A DNA stretch of 64,000 bases from Leclercia adecarboxylata (lineage in GTDB: Bacteria > Pseudomonadota > Gammaproteobacteria > Enterobacterales > Enterobacteriaceae). This document shows, piece after piece, positions 34,748 through 39,960 of this stretch. The stretch's first letter is position 1. Each line of letters begins with the position of its first letter. The notes beneath the pieces were generated by a model. It saw nothing but the letters and a program-made list of their open reading frames with translations. It made no database searches and was not told the origin of the DNA. The position numbers and the translations under genes are program-made. Where the stretch lies: contig NZ_CP098325.1 in the NCBI RefSeq assembly GCF_023639785.1, forward strand, positions 2,852,001-2,916,000, in the 5' to 3' direction.

Positions 34748-36825
34748 CACTGGCCTCCAATGCTGGCGGTCATGCGGATGTGGCGATTGTCCGACAGCTC
34801 CATATTCGACAGCACAACCAGCTGCGTCAGGCTGCGGCGCAGGAAGCGGGACAGCAGCGGACGCAGGGCGTGATTGACCAGCAGCACCGGCGGCGCGCCA
34901 AGCATCTCCTGGCGCTGCAACGCCTCCTGGGTTTGCGCCAGCAGACGATCCGCCAGCCCCGGCTCCAGACCGCCGCCGCCCTGCAGCGCCTGCAGGAGCA
35001 GTCGCTCAAGCGGCGTGTCGAGCCCAATAACCTGCACTTCGCCGGTGCCCGGGAACCACTGCTGGGTAATGGCGCGGCCCAGCGCCACGCGCACCACCGC
35101 CGTCAGCTCGTGCGGATCGTTTTGCAGCGGCGCATGCTCGGCCAGGGTCTCCAGAATGGTACGCATATCGCGGATCGGCACTTTCTCGTCGAGCAGGTTC
35201 TGCAGAACTTTGTGCAGCGTGGTCAGGGTCAGGACGCCCGGAACCAGATCTTCGGTCAGCTTCGGCATCTCCTGGGTTACCCGATCGAGCAGCTGCTGCG
35301 CCTCCTGGCGACCAAACAGCTCCGCCGAGAACTGGCCAATCAGGTGATTCAGGTGCGTTGCCACTACGGTACTGGCTTCCACCACCGTATAGCCCTGGAT
35401 TTGCGCCTGCTCTTTCAGGGCGCTTTCAATCCAGATTGCGGCCAGGCCAAAGGCCGGGTCGATGGTCTGTTCGCCAGGCAGCGTCCCCGCCGCCGTGCCC
35501 GGGTTAATCGCCAGCCAGCGGCCAGGATAGGCGTCACCGCTGCCGATCTCGACCCCTTTCATCAGAATACGGTAGCGCGCAGGGGGCAGATCCATATTGT
35601 CGCGGATATGCACCACCGGCGGCAGGAAGCCCATGTCCTGGGCGAATTTTTTACGGATACTGCGGATACGCCCCAGCAGCTCGCCGTCCTGCTGGAAATC
35701 AACCATCGGGATCAGGCGATAGCCCACTTCCATCCCCAGGGAGTCTTCCAGCTGGACGTCATTCCAGGTGGCCTCCACCGCCTGGGTATTTTCCGGCATT
35801 TTCACCGGGGCAGGTTCGGCTTTCGGTTTGGCGTCGCGGCCACGCAGCCACCAGGCCAGCCCCAGCAGCGCGGCGGTAAACAGCAGGAAGACGAAGTTCG
35901 GCATGCCCGGCACCAGGCCCAGCAGGCCGAGTACCGCCGCCGACAGCATCAGCACGTTCGGGTTGGCGAACAGCTGGGTCACCATCTGCTCGCCGACGTC
36001 CTGGTCGGTGGCGACGCGGGTGACGATCACACCCGCCGCGGTGGAGATTACCAGCGCCGGGATCTGGGCAACCAGACCGTCACCGATGGTCAGCAGGGTA
36101 TAGCTCTCTGCCGCCTGCCCCATCGCCATGCCGTGTTGCAGCACACCGACCAGCAGGCCGCCCACCACGTTGATCACCATGATCAGAATACCGGCGATGG
36201 CGTCGCCGCGAACAAACTTACTCGCACCGTCCATCGAACCGTAGAAGTCGGCTTCCTGGGTCACTTCGGCACGGCGTTTTTTCGCTTCATCTTCGCCAAT
36301 CAGACCCGCGTTCAGGTCGGCGTCAATCGCCATCTGTTTACCCGGCATCCCGTCCAGTACGAAACGTGCGCCCACTTCTGCGATACGCCCCGCACCTTTG
36401 GTGATAACCATAAAGTTGATGATCACGAGGATGATAAATACCACGATCCCGATGGCGAAGTTGCCGCCCACCAGGAAGTGGCCGAAGGCCTCAACCACCT
36501 TACCTGCCGCCGCGCCGCCGGTATGGCCCTCCATCAGAATGATACGGGTGGAGGCCACGTTCAGCGCCAGGCGCAGCAGCGTGGTGAACAGCAGGATCGT
36601 CGGGAAGGCGGCGAACTCCAGCGTGCGCTGGGTGAACATCGCCACCAGCAACACCATAATGGAGAGCGCGATGTTGAAGGTGAAAAGCAGGTCGAGGATA
36701 AATGCCGGTAGCGGCAATACCATCATCGACAGAATTAGCAGGATGAGGATCGGCCCGGCCATGATCTGCCATTGGGTCGATTTCAGGTTGCCAGGCAAGC
36801 GTAACATTGCCACCAGATTAGCCAT
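34747..36825 (-). CDS. flhA: Flagellar type III export apparatus protein FlhA
   Basis: This 692-residue core of the flagellar export gate has eight transmembrane helices in the N-terminal half (about 20-330), including the FHIPEP-family loop (GRIAEVGARFVLDGMPGKQMAIDADLN), followed by a large cytoplasmic domain (about 360-692) that docks chaperone-substrate complexes. Length equals E. coli FlhA. It overlaps flhB by 8 bp and abuts flhE, as in E. coli. Confidence 0.98.
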   Translation of the reverse strand: MANLVAMLRLPGNLKSTQWQIMAGPILILLILSMMVLPLPAFILDLLFTFNIALSIMVLLVAMFTQRTLEFAAFPTILLFTTLLRLALNVASTRIILMEGHTGGAAAGKVVEAFGHFLVGGNFAIGIVVFIILVIINFMVITKGAGRIAEVGARFVLDGMPGKQMAIDADLNAGLIGEDEAKKRRAEVTQEADFYGSMDGASKFVRGDAIAGILIMVINVVGGLLVGVLQHGMAMGQAAESYTLLTIGDGLVAQIPALVISTAAGVIVTRVATDQDVGEQMVTQLFANPNVLMLSAAVLGLLGLVPGMPNFVFLLFTAALLGLAWWLRGRDAKPKAEPAPVKMPENTQAVEATWNDVQLEDSLGMEVGYRLIPMVDFQQDGELLGRIRSIRKKFAQDMGFLPPVVHIRDNMDLPPARYRILMKGVEIGSGDAYPGRWLAINPGTAAGTLPGEQTIDPAFGLAAIWIESALKEQAQIQGYTVVEASTVVATHLNHLIGQFSAELFGRQEAQQLLDRVTQEMPKLTEDLVPGVLTLTTLHKVLQNLLDEKVPIRDMRTILETLAEHAPLQNDPHELTAVVRVALGRAITQQWFPGTGEVQVIGLDTPLERLLLQALQGGGGLEPGLADRLLAQTQEALQRQEMLGAPPVLLVNHALRPLLSRFLRRSLTQLVVLSNMELSDNRHIRMTASIGGQ

Positions 36826-37966
36826 CAGAGTCCTTCTCGTTCATAAAATCCAGCGCGGCAGGCACCGGGAGATTCTCAGGTTTCACAGGCCGTTGACCGC
36901 CCGCCAGACGCCAGCGTTTCAACTGCCATACCCAGGCCAGTACTTCCGCTACCGCGGCGTACAGCTGGCCTGGGATTTGTTGTCCAATTTCCGCATGCCG
37001 GTAGAGCGCACGCGCCAGCGGCGGGGCCTCCAGCATCGGAATACGATTTTCATTACCAATTTCACGGATGCGCAGCGCGATAAGCCCTGCCCCTTTCGCC
37101 ACCACTTTTGGCGCACTCATTTTGTCTTCGTCATACTGCAGCGCAACGGAGTAGTGGGTCGGGTTGGTGACGATAACATCCGCTTTTGGCACATCCTCCA
37201 TCATCCGGCGACGTGCCGCGGCGCGCTGCATCTGGCGAATACGCCCTTTGACGTGCGGGTCCCCTTCCATCTGCTTATGTTCATCCCGGATGTCCTGGCG
37301 GGACATGCGCAGTTTTTTAATGTGGCTGTAAATCTGGAAGAAAACGTCAAAACCGACCATCGGGATGATGGAGAGCACCACCAGCAGAGAACAGAGCCCC
37401 ACCAGATTAAGCGCGTTGCGCATGGCGGTGAACGGCGATTCGCTGATCAGACGCATCATCTCCGGCCAGTTATGCCAGATAAAAAAGCCCGCCACGCTGC
37501 CCATCAGCGTCGTTTTCATCAGGGCTTTCAGCAGTTCGGCGGCAGACTGCGCAGAGAACATTCGCGCAATGCCGGGCAGCGGGTTCAGTTTGGAGAATTT
37601 AAACTGCAGCGACTTACCGCTAAAGACCAGCCCGCCCAGCATCACCGGCGACACGATAGCCACCAGCACCACGCCGGTGATCAGAGGCAGCAGCGCGACC
37701 ATCGCGCCTTTGATCAGCAGGATAATCTGGCTGAGGATCAGGTTTGGGTCGTTGACCATGCTGTGATCGAAGCGCAACCCGGCTGAGAGCATGCCGGCCA
37801 GCCTGCGGGCAAGGGACTCCCCGCCTGTCCAGATAATGCACACGCCGACTAATAAAATCAGCAGCGAGGTCAGTTCTCGGGATCGGGGTATTTGCCCTTC
37901 CTCACGCGCTTTTTCAAGTCGGTGGGGTGTGGGGGCTTCTGTTTTGTCGTCGCTGTCTTCTGCCAC
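36818..37966 (-). CDS. flhB: Flagellar type III export switch protein FlhB
   Basis: This 382-residue export-gate protein controls the switch from rod/hook to filament export. Four transmembrane helices (about 30-210) are followed by a cytoplasmic domain with the autocleavage motif NPTHY (ADVIVTNPTHYSVAL). I prefer the GTG at 37966, which has a GAG ribosome site 8 bases upstream and gives the E. coli length; an ATG three codons upstream (37975) has no ribosome site. The 108 bp before it must hold the class 2 promoter, directly next to the foreign cassette at 38075. Confidence 0.95.
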   Translation of the reverse strand: MAEDSDDKTEAPTPHRLEKAREEGQIPRSRELTSLLILLVGVCIIWTGGESLARRLAGMLSAGLRFDHSMVNDPNLILSQIILLIKGAMVALLPLITGVVLVAIVSPVMLGGLVFSGKSLQFKFSKLNPLPGIARMFSAQSAAELLKALMKTTLMGSVAGFFIWHNWPEMMRLISESPFTAMRNALNLVGLCSLLVVLSIIPMVGFDVFFQIYSHIKKLRMSRQDIRDEHKQMEGDPHVKGRIRQMQRAAARRRMMEDVPKADVIVTNPTHYSVALQYDEDKMSAPKVVAKGAGLIALRIREIGNENRIPMLEAPPLARALYRHAEIGQQIPGQLYAAVAEVLAWVWQLKRWRLAGGQRPVKPENLPVPAALDFMNEKDSDG

Positions 37967-38074
37967 GGCAAGCATCTCGCAGGTAGAGGTCTGGACGATA
38001 TGATGCCAAAGCCGCGCGTGACCAATGGGTTAATTAGGGGCGATAAAAGGGCTGATTTAGGCTATTCGGTCGTA

Positions 38075-38650
38075 TCAGCGAGGGGGTTTAACCTGCTCAG
38101 CTTGTTTGCGACGACGTGCCACCAACGATGAGGCGAGGGATTCAATCTCTTTAAAGTCCTTTGAGGCGCTGCTTCTTAGCACCATATTCCACTTGCTGAG
38201 TACTCGCGCATTCACCACCAGCTCGCTCCCCTCTTTCAACCGGCCATTGCTGGCAAGCCAGTTCGCTACATCTGCCCACTCCCAAAGTGGGGACTGGCCG
38301 GTAATTCGCTGAATGGGGCAAGGAAAATCGCCGCCGCCGCGCGTGCCGTCTTTCAGCATGGCGATAGCCTGGCGAGACAGGTCGGTCATTTCCGCGATGT
38401 CGCTCAGGCCGACCAGGGCAGAGTCGACAGACTGTACGATCGCCCCGATGCCAGCCGATTCGATGTCGTTGACCGCTGAGGCGATAGCATCATCTAAGGT
38501 TTCAGCCTCCCGATCAAAGGTGAGATAGACGGAGTTGCCATATGCGCAGATTAGCGCATCGTCACAGCCGCTTGCATACAGTGCGTCTTCCAGTCCTTCA
38601 GTCCCGCAGGTTACGCCTGAGAGGGTCAGAGTGAAGTTAAACAGCGCCAT
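38075..38650 (-). CDS. Helix-turn-helix protein, candidate antitoxin of a HicA-like module
   Basis: This is a 191-residue protein with no E. coli K-12 counterpart at this locus. The N-terminal part (about 1-75) is a small alpha/beta domain with the pattern EDALYASGCDDALI...FDREAETLDDAI, followed by a winged helix-turn-helix (about 79-130; VGLSDIAEMTDLSRQAIAML, wing up to SPLWEWADVANWL) and a basic tail rich in K and R. An AGAGG ribosome site precedes the ATG. It is encoded 77 bp downstream of a 74-aa HicA-like gene and is probably cotranscribed. The small-toxin-first, DNA-binding-antitoxin-second order resembles hicAB. Function is inferred from architecture only; a stand-alone regulator is the main alternative. 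Confidence 0.7.
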   Translation of the reverse strand: MALFNFTLTLSGVTCGTEGLEDALYASGCDDALICAYGNSVYLTFDREAETLDDAIASAVNDIESAGIGAIVQSVDSALVGLSDIAEMTDLSRQAIAMLKDGTRGGGDFPCPIQRITGQSPLWEWADVANWLASNGRLKEGSELVVNARVLSKWNMVLRSSASKDFKEIESLASSLVARRRKQAEQVKPPR

Positions 38651-38691
38651 AGTACCTCTTCATTTTGTTGTTAGCGTCACTTCTTAATCGA

Positions 38692-38717
38692 TAAGGCATG
38701 GCCGCAACCACGCCTTA
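38692..38717 (-). other. Hairpin between the two genes of the HicA-like cassette
   Basis: The ten-bp inverted repeat TAAGGCATGG / CCACGCCTTA with one mismatch and a 6-nt loop lies in the 77-bp gap between the small gene and the helix-turn-helix gene. There is no T-run, so it is not a plain terminator. It could tune the relative expression of the two genes; that is inference. Confidence 0.45.
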
Positions 38718-38727
38718 CCGGGCTAAA

Positions 38728-38952
38728 TCAAAGGCAATGTTTTACGTTGCGGATGATTTGCAGGGCATGGTTTTCTGCATTTTTCGGCGTCGACCATATA
38801 CTCATCTGGTGATCCCAATGATCGCCTTCTGGGTTACCACAGCGCAGCTTGCAAAAGCAGTGCGCTGAATGTCCCGGCGGAACCCAAACCCAACCCTTAC
38901 TCAGGGCATAATCGATAGCCCTCTGAATATGCTTGTTCGGATGTCTCTTCAT
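38728..38952 (-). CDS. Small HicA-like protein, candidate toxin
   Basis: This 74-residue protein has an N-terminal helix (NKHIQRAIDYALSKGW), a beta strand leading to a GH motif (PPGHSAHCFCKLRCG, H28 and H31) and a C-terminal strand-helix unit (SIWSTPKNAENHALQIIRN). The order helix, G-W, strand with conserved His, strand, helix recalls the double-stranded-RNA-binding fold of HicA mRNA interferases, whose catalytic His sits in the same place. The match is structural-pattern level, not certain homology. GGAGG lies just before the ATG. It is the first gene of a self-contained transcription unit with its own promoter and palindrome. Confidence 0.65.
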   Translation of the reverse strand: MKRHPNKHIQRAIDYALSKGWVWVPPGHSAHCFCKLRCGNPEGDHWDHQMSIWSTPKNAENHALQIIRNVKHCL

Positions 38953-38969
38953 TGGCCTCCGTTAACAGA

Positions 38970-38999
38970 AGTCTATTTTGAGTGTTGACACTTGTCAAC
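38970..38999 (-). promoter_or_regulatory. Promoter and palindromic operator of the HicA-like cassette
   Basis: GTTGACACTTGTCAAC (38984-38999) is a perfect 7-bp inverted repeat with a 2-bp centre. On the minus strand it contains a consensus -35 TTGACA (38998-38993), followed after exactly 17 bases by -10 TAGACT (38975-38970). The predicted start gives a leader of only about 11 nt carrying the GGAGG site. A dimeric regulator on the palindrome would block the -35, as expected for an autoregulated toxin-antitoxin unit. Confidence 0.8.
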
Positions 39000-39164
39000 G
39001 TAAAATAGTCATGCGTCCGTGTCGTCACTCGCCTGAAATTGCTGTCTACGGCCAGCAAAAACCCTGAAAAGACTAACAGAATTCATTATTAAAAACGGGG
39101 TGACGTCGTGGCAGATTGCCAAATCTGGAAAGCGGATCGTAATGAGGGATGAAACAGATGCGCA

Positions 39165-39191
39165 AAGAAAAATGCCACCTGTGCAGGTGGC
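39165..39191 (-). terminator. Rho-independent terminator downstream of cheZ
   Basis: The eight-bp stem GCCACCTG (39174-39181) pairs with 39184-39191 and is followed on the minus strand by ATTTTTCTTT. It closes the chemotaxis transcript before the HicA-like cassette, so the cassette and flhBAE rely on their own promoters. Confidence 0.8.
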
Positions 39192-39196
39192 GTTTC

Positions 39197-39294
39197 TGCC
39201 GGGTGGCGCTGCGCTTACCCGGCCTACAATATCCTGCAATATCGACATATTGTGGGGTCTTTGTAGGCCTGTGCAAGCGCAGCGCCGCCAGGCA
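39197..39294. repeat. Pair of inverted REP units (BIME) after cheZ
   Basis: Two REP units lie head-to-head: 39197-39228 (GCCGGGTGGCGCTGCGCTTA) and 39262-39294 (TGCAAGCGCAGCGCCGCCAG). The intervening 33 bp contains CGACATATTGTGG. This is the standard BIME form. The remaining part of 38953-39315 contains the cheZ terminator and the cassette promoter; the short ORFs crossing it are not credible genes. Confidence 0.75.
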
Positions 39295-39315
39295 TTTTCA
39301 GCCGAGCGTAGGTTA

Positions 39316-39960
39316 TCAGAAGCCTAAGCTGTCCAGCAGGTCGTCCACCTGATCCTGGCTTGCCACGACACCGGCTTTGGTGGTGTCGAGCTGTGGGCCA
39401 TTCAGCAGGCTTTCGTTTTCCCGTTGCGGACGCGCGGAAGGTTCCGGCATGTTCTCCAGCAACACCATCAACAGCTGGCGCTCAATCTCCTGGATGACGT
39501 CCATCATGCGCTTGATCACCTGACCGGTAAGGTCCTGGAAATCCTGCGCCATCATGATCTCCAGCAACTGCGCATTGGTGAAGCTGGTATGACCCGGTAC
39601 GGCACCAAGGTACTGACGAGTGTCGGTGACCAGCTCGCGGGCGTCGGAGAGTTCGATTGGATTTTCGAACCACTCGTCCCAGCGTTTGGTCAGCGCTTTT
39701 GCGCCCTTTTCCATCTCGTCCTGATGCGGCTGAGACGCTTCAACACTGTTCAGCGCACGCTCTGCCGCCTGGGCAGTCATCTGTACAACATAATCAAGAC
39801 GATCGCGGGCATCAGGAATCGCTTCCGCTGCCTCTGCAATCGCCTGATCCAGTCCCAGCTCACGCAGGCTGTCGCGCAACATACGCGTCAGGCTGCCGAT
39901 CCGGGCAATTATGTCGCCGGGTGAATGCTCATCCGTAGGTTTAATCGAAGGCTGCATCAT
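39316..39960 (-). CDS. cheZ: Protein phosphatase CheZ
   Basis: This 214-residue dimeric phosphatase dephosphorylates CheY-P and so ends the tumble signal. A long four-helix-bundle hairpin (about 35-165) carries the active-site region [16 protein letters not shown], with the catalytic Gln (in DLTGQ). The conserved C-terminal CheY-binding peptide ([16 protein letters not shown]) is intact. Length equals E. coli. It is the last gene of the tar-tap-cheRBYZ operon. Confidence 0.97.

Follow-up and report, generated by a model that had tools for sequence, protein, structure and literature searches.

Toxin–antitoxin modules of the HicAB type are the closest described systems to the locus discussed here. 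In the sections of the literature cited for them, they are described as having a conserved His, a DNA-binding partner and a palindromic operator at the promoter (PMC7180214, PMC10865869, PMC11594946). The locus in question is a two-gene cassette in a 64,000-nucleotide stretch of Leclercia adecarboxylata DNA (contig NZ_CP098325.1, positions 2,852,001 to 2,916,000; hereafter the window), taken from a genome of 4.74 Mb. Gene A (38728-38952, minus strand), found in the list of open reading frames (ORFs), encodes a 74-aa protein with a predicted HicA fold that is a putative toxin. Gene B (38075-38650, minus strand) is an ORF for 191 aa, a putative antitoxin and autorepressor by its profile matches and its adjacency to A. 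Like HicAB, the cassette has the putative toxin gene first, a partner with a predicted DNA-binding domain and a palindromic operator at the promoter; a single conserved His near strand 2 may be a further likeness. Unlike HicA, A gives no match to HicA profiles and has an additional C38/H45/H48/C73 cluster. HicB combines a partial RNase H fold with a helix-turn-helix (HTH) or ribbon-helix-helix domain, whereas B is predicted to have a ferredoxin-like N-terminal domain followed by a winged HTH. A–B also differs from HicAB in that one operator type is found in most copies, from Enterobacterales to Acinetobacter. We consider it probable that A–B is a mobile, self-repressing, type II toxin–antitoxin-like module with a HicA-fold toxin and a non-HicB antitoxin.

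The pair itself is already recorded in several places. Candidate PDC-M06 of PADLOC-DB, an entry that carries no description, is the identical pair: the adjacent genes match both of its models, A matching PDC-M06A (1.8e-16) and B matching PDC-M06B (7.2e-32). A also matches PHROG 5923 (7.6e-39), and B matches PHROG 2620 (2.9e-96). In the case of the phage-plasmid Cyrano, the pair CYRAN_51/50 has the same gene order, shows A/B identities of 74%/76% and is annotated as HicA/HicB; it lies between the UvsY gene and a DNA polymerase III alpha gene. The SSU5 pair SSU5_055/054, again in the same order (identities 44%/62%), is annotated as hypothetical/AlpA-like and lies between the gene corresponding to UvsY and the DNA polymerase III alpha gene. 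An Enterobacter plasmid copy is in this same region. According to the part of PMC9928086 that covers strain LF82, Cyrano A was transcribed 30-fold and B 14-fold over the prophage background, and the two genes are listed there as a HicA-HicB toxin–antitoxin without a functional test. Another likeness, by description only, is to Shi of the ParA-Shi pair of ICEclc, which is likewise small, related to HicA and encoded by a mobile element, and whose partner is ParA; in the portion of PMC6812849 concerned, Shi arrests division and is not growth-inhibiting alone. Searches of the open-licence PubMed Central literature found neither the name PDC-M06 nor a functional study of the pair. The earlier note on this DNA had called the cassette an undescribed system. 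That wording is too strong because PDC-M06A/B are listed and the Cyrano copy carries a HicA/HicB annotation, and its overall interpretation is partly supported: A–B is a toxin–antitoxin by layout and HicA-like by predicted fold, with a partner that is not HicB.

In the layout of a type II toxin–antitoxin module, a small putative toxin gene is here linked to a putative antitoxin with a DNA-binding domain, as the earlier note had read it, and frequent occurrence of the small gene without its partner, which the note had named as a ground for refutation, is not seen in the loci retrieved. Of 120 such loci, made up of the 80 best among 179 genome matches and of 40 viral ones, 118 have B adjoining A, 107 by an automatic rule and 11 by listed overlaps or by reading. 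In L022, L042, L046, L047, L082, L090, L095 and L097 the start had been set too far upstream with B present, and L041, the A–B fusion L064 and L063 (where the rule assigned no start to A) were counted as paired as well. The two unpaired loci are L065, at a contig end, and L140. Among 247 genomes of the order, A was found in 9 and B in 10, co-located in 9/9. Starting from B instead, A is present in 29/32 distinct unpicked loci and in 3/6 hand-picked loci (L253-L258, five of which were chosen as possibly lacking A). The unpicked loci with B only (L145, L243 and L246) have the operator dyad described below, or a one-base variant of it, ahead of B. In the E. coli phage-plasmid L253, neither A nor the dyad was found, and homology to B begins at model position 20.

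Several loci show unusual arrangements. In L064 (8001-8825, Raoultella ornithinolytica), A and B form one 274-aa ORF, by fusion or by loss of the A stop. L139 has A, then a short B comprising only the N-domain, then a separate HTH-like ORF after 8219, as if B were split; we take this third ORF to encode an Xre-type HTH protein. At L140 (1815-2362), the gene after a distantly related A (43% identity) encodes an unrelated protein of 112 aa that has no Pfam match and may be another antitoxin. L257 (1932-2252), on a plasmid of Acinetobacter towneri, encodes a protein partly resembling the B N-domain after an Xre-like antitoxin gene and before genes for a DNA methyltransferase and a restriction subunit S.

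Upstream of A lies the operator dyad GTTGACAAGTGTCAAC (38984-38999, no strand), of the form GTTGAC-N4-GTCAAC and the predicted site of a B dimer. When 131 loci were merged by identical 80-bp upstreams, 110 distinct A upstreams remained, of which 83 carry GTTGAC-N4-GTCAAC and 6 carry GTTTAC-N4-GTAAAC (89 perfect), and 99 have at most one mismatch. No perfect operator dyad occurs in 5326 control windows, no additional GTTGAC-type dyad in 1.56 Mb of A–B loci, and neither a GTTGAC nor a GTTTAC site in 21 hicAB loci; in the whole of its own genome, the exact pattern occurs once, at the A promoter. The middle four bases are free (39 variants among the 83 GTTGAC-type sites) and base changes are symmetric, which favours a dimer site in addition to a -35 box. 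The dyad is also tied to the HTH: it is present within two mismatches, a test passed by 20/2000 random stretches, in 94/96 loci whose B has an HTH and in 0/3 loci whose B lacks one (L041, L045 and L139). Together these comparisons point to a conserved DNA site at the module's own promoter that is linked to the HTH of B.

Specificity appears to follow the same link. Across 90 distinct sites with at most one mismatch outside base 4, of which 6 mixed sites stand outside the 2x2 table, G/G at dyad base 4 goes with Q at B position 94 in 74 sites and with A in one (L136), and T/T is accompanied by A, T or M in 9/9. In a tree built from 82 distinct B proteins whose dyad is perfect, an Acinetobacter G/Q group is nested in the T/A group and has L136 as its neighbour. 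As judged from these alignments, dyad base 4 tracks the recognition-helix residue of B. A distant, Cys-rich subfamily (L146-L150), with a Cys-rich A and a B recognition helix resembling SRQNMRKL, has GTTGTC-N4-GACAAC in 5/5 loci and keeps the Q of the recognition helix; it fits the PDC-M06 models better than the other copies do (L148, 9.9e-42 and 1.6e-67).

A number of observations qualify this account of the operator. An equally large perfect dyad is found in 68/2000 random 80-bp stretches of the window; because size alone is this common by chance, the weight of the dyad rests on its conservation (89/110 versus 0/5326). One of the three loci with an HTH-less B, L045, also has a truncated A. 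Several of the relevant branches of the B tree are long, so false joins are possible, and the covariation of helix and operator reflects few independent events and is shared by other B columns that split the groups too. No good dyad was seen at L054, L127, Vibrio L254 or L255, and in the survey from B the strict dyad is missing in 14/32 A-bearing loci, among them the five GTTGTC loci and copies of SSU5 type that have one dyad mismatch.

Structure prediction supports a HicA-like fold for A. An AlphaFold2 model (mean predicted local distance difference test score 90.5) places helix 7-18, strands 21-24, 32-38 and 49-53, and helix 59-72, the order of secondary structure guessed from the sequence in the earlier note. 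Foldseek found no significant match to A in the PDB, and HicA chains surfaced as the nearest solved structures solely after VIA-align re-ranking. H31, directly before strand 32-38, is kept in 212/213 distinct homologues and, in an alignment of A with HicA, pairs with the second His of GSHH; the main test of this alignment left out 6/27 HicA proteins, and results were obtained both with and without these. The earlier note had favoured H28 as the key residue. Position 28 is His in 16/213 homologues, which rules it out as the catalytic residue. C38, H45, H48 and C73 are near-invariant among distinct homologues and probably form a metal site. The Pfam and NCBIfam HicA models do not match A, the HicA family is listed for 0/25 A members, and PF07927 (HicA_toxin) has no match anywhere in the own genome. 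One A homologue (P0207) carries a HicA name in UniRef. The names RuBisCO_small, Kelch and CagE_TrbE_VirB were rejected as weak matches, which for the window proteins fall under Pfam cut-offs.

B can be divided into three parts on the minus strand. Residues 1-77 (38420-38650) are predicted to form a ferredoxin-like beta-alpha-beta-beta-alpha-beta domain, which may be the A-binding part. Residues 78-140 (38231-38419) form the predicted winged HTH, with the recognition-helix Q in SRQAIAML at model position 94, and residues 141-191 (38078-38230) form a tail modelled as two helices (143-162 and 166-186), most of which is missing from shorter B proteins of ~149 aa. Profile-profile comparison (hhalign) with 21 HicB partners gave 1.5% for the N-domain and 0.8% for the whole of B; HicB did not appear among the matches listed for B in one further comparison, which points neither way. 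By profile and predicted topology, then, B is not HicB, in keeping with the earlier note's view that the partner lacks the HicB layout. HicA/HicB proper was rejected on the absent HicA profile match together with the 1.5% HicB result. Pfam Phage_AlpA has no match listed for the window B; it is touched by 8/46 B members at E up to 1, with a best value of 0.025.

The local layout is much as the earlier note described it: both ORFs lie on the minus strand between Pfam-confirmed cheZ (39316-39960) and flhB (36818-37975), separated by 77 nt, behind a near-consensus promoter of their own. The -35 hexamer TTGACA (38993-38998, minus) is inside the dyad, and a 17-bp spacer separates it from the -10 hexamer TAGACT (38970-38975, minus), which is followed by a Shine-Dalgarno GGAGG (38956-38960, minus). 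The perfect palindrome upstream of A is present (38999-38984), and the junction is indeed empty in E. coli, where the K-12 flhB-cheZ gap is 201 bp without the cassette. Within the genus, A is found in 8/61 genomes with B adjoining in 8/8, and 7/8 lie between flhB and cheZ, the exception being G026. We compared 30 flhB loci, the best 30 of 60 genus genomes with flhB and one per genome: the cassette occupies 7 (gap 1231-1340 bp), the junction is empty in 14 (136-268 bp), and 9 show no cheZ within the fetched stretch, so that both genes could be placed in 21. The 9 have opposite-strand ORFs instead, presumably of fimbrial type (pilin- and chaperone-like). The junction (window 37976-39315; L188-L217) looks like an insertion hotspot in the genus. 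When the locus is compared with four empty relatives, the flank common to them restarts ~2-14 bp beyond the end of B, and no target-site duplication could be defined, the cheZ side having repeats. Between cheZ and the cassette there is an inverted repeat pair of GGCGCTGCGCTTACCCGGCCTAC type (~39167-39295), also seen in the empty loci L190 and L193, which we assume to be REP-like (repetitive extragenic palindromic).

The same pair is found well beyond this junction. A was matched in 216/72,556 plasmid records, 212 of the 216 being typed non-mobilizable, in 3 phage records (one for Cyrano, two for SSU5) and in 40 IMG/VR loci. The Cyrano version occurs at near identity on plasmids of 110/5426 E. 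coli genomes and on 0 chromosomes. Genome contigs that carry A come from Morganella, Rahnella, Klebsiella, Pectobacterium, Serratia, Acinetobacter and others; in 14 loci compared, the neighbouring ORFs mostly differ, and a following ORF is common to L048 and L057. A–B is thus a mobile unit with flhB-cheZ as one of its landing sites. The earlier note was right about the location, which holds in 7/61 genus genomes, and the site does not define the system. In one contig titled Chryseobacterium (L056), B is very near a Citrobacter B in the tree, possibly through a mixed assembly. In seven comparisons each with other chromosomal carriers, the ratio of nonsynonymous to synonymous divergence (dN/dS) was 0.06-0.21 for A and 0.08-0.20 for B; L022 and L198, whose values are identical, probably represent a single genome. 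These ratios indicate purifying selection on both genes at the flhB-cheZ junction. Synonymous divergence is greater for the cassette than for flhB in every one of the seven pairs, an excess that would fit exchange of the cassette between genomes.

Care must be taken in reading the pair as a toxin–antitoxin. The main alternative, which we regard as rather unlikely, is a phage-type regulatory pair in which B would act as a transcription factor of AlpA type, with A as a small, non-toxic, metal-binding co-regulator or antirepressor that modulates B. It draws on the PHROG 2620 label ('excisionase and transcriptional regulator'), the AlpA-like annotation of SSU5 B, the weak Phage_AlpA matches, the operator or its one-base variant kept by B in the loci without A, and Shi, a HicA relative that by the portion of PMC6812849 cited above is not toxic alone. 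However, the single exact operator of the host genome is at the module's own promoter, and therefore there is no regulon by exact match. A regulatory role also sits poorly with a small protein that has a predicted HicA fold and hardly ever occurs without B, with purifying selection keeping the pair at a flagellar junction, and with three loci in which B stands beside A as an HTH-less N-domain.

An ordinary hicAB module missed by profiles would account for the Cyrano annotation, for the UniRef name of P0207 and for the gene order, since A followed by an HTH-bearing partner is the order of class 3 hicAB in the relevant part of Gerdes 2024 (PMC10865869). We consider it highly improbable, given the predicted topology of B against the partial RNase H of HicB, the low HicB profile scores, the conserved C/H cluster and missing HicA profile match of A, and the absence of the operator from the hicAB loci. 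Alternatively, the same parts could have been selected for anti-phage defence (abortive infection or phage-plasmid exclusion) more than for plasmid maintenance, a suggestion that concerns role and not mechanism and so overlaps with the toxin–antitoxin reading. PADLOC lists the pair as a candidate, and HicA domains have been proposed to act in defence in the part of PMC10865869 cited, but numerous carriers are phage-plasmids themselves, and we hold this role to be a possibility of a tentative kind.

The type II toxin–antitoxin-like module remains our preferred explanation, for which the two-gene layout, the pairing, dyad conservation, the HTH–operator link, purifying selection and patchy spread are drawn from sequence comparison, with both folds as predictions. 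From these parts we infer RNase activity and toxicity of A, its neutralisation, repression and metal binding. Most likely, A would bind and cleave RNA via H31, which borders strand 2, and a metal held by C38, H45, H48 and C73 would tie the end of the final helix to the hairpin of beta2 and beta3. The ferredoxin-like N-domain of B would bind and block A. Dimers of B, with or without A, would use the winged HTH to occupy GTTGAC-N4-GTCAAC, cover the -35 and switch the operon off. A shortage of B, as in plasmid loss or phage takeover, would then free A and stop translation. With somewhat less confidence, we lean towards the fuller picture of an undescribed toxin–antitoxin family. In it, a metal-stapled HicA-fold RNase would be neutralised by an antitoxin that combines a ferredoxin-like domain with a winged HTH and is no relative of HicB; SSU5-type phage-plasmids would have spread the pair, some copies would have settled on chromosomes, and one ancient operator would be changing in step with the recognition helix.

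Should A prove to be a toxin, a second antitoxin of unrelated structure would have taken over the HicA fold, and what the fold itself needs could be separated from what HicB contributes. The shared dyad offers a testable code of protein–DNA specificity, in which Q goes with G, and A, T or M with T. SSU5-type phage-plasmids that carry A–B are widespread, and the pair may account for part of their stability.
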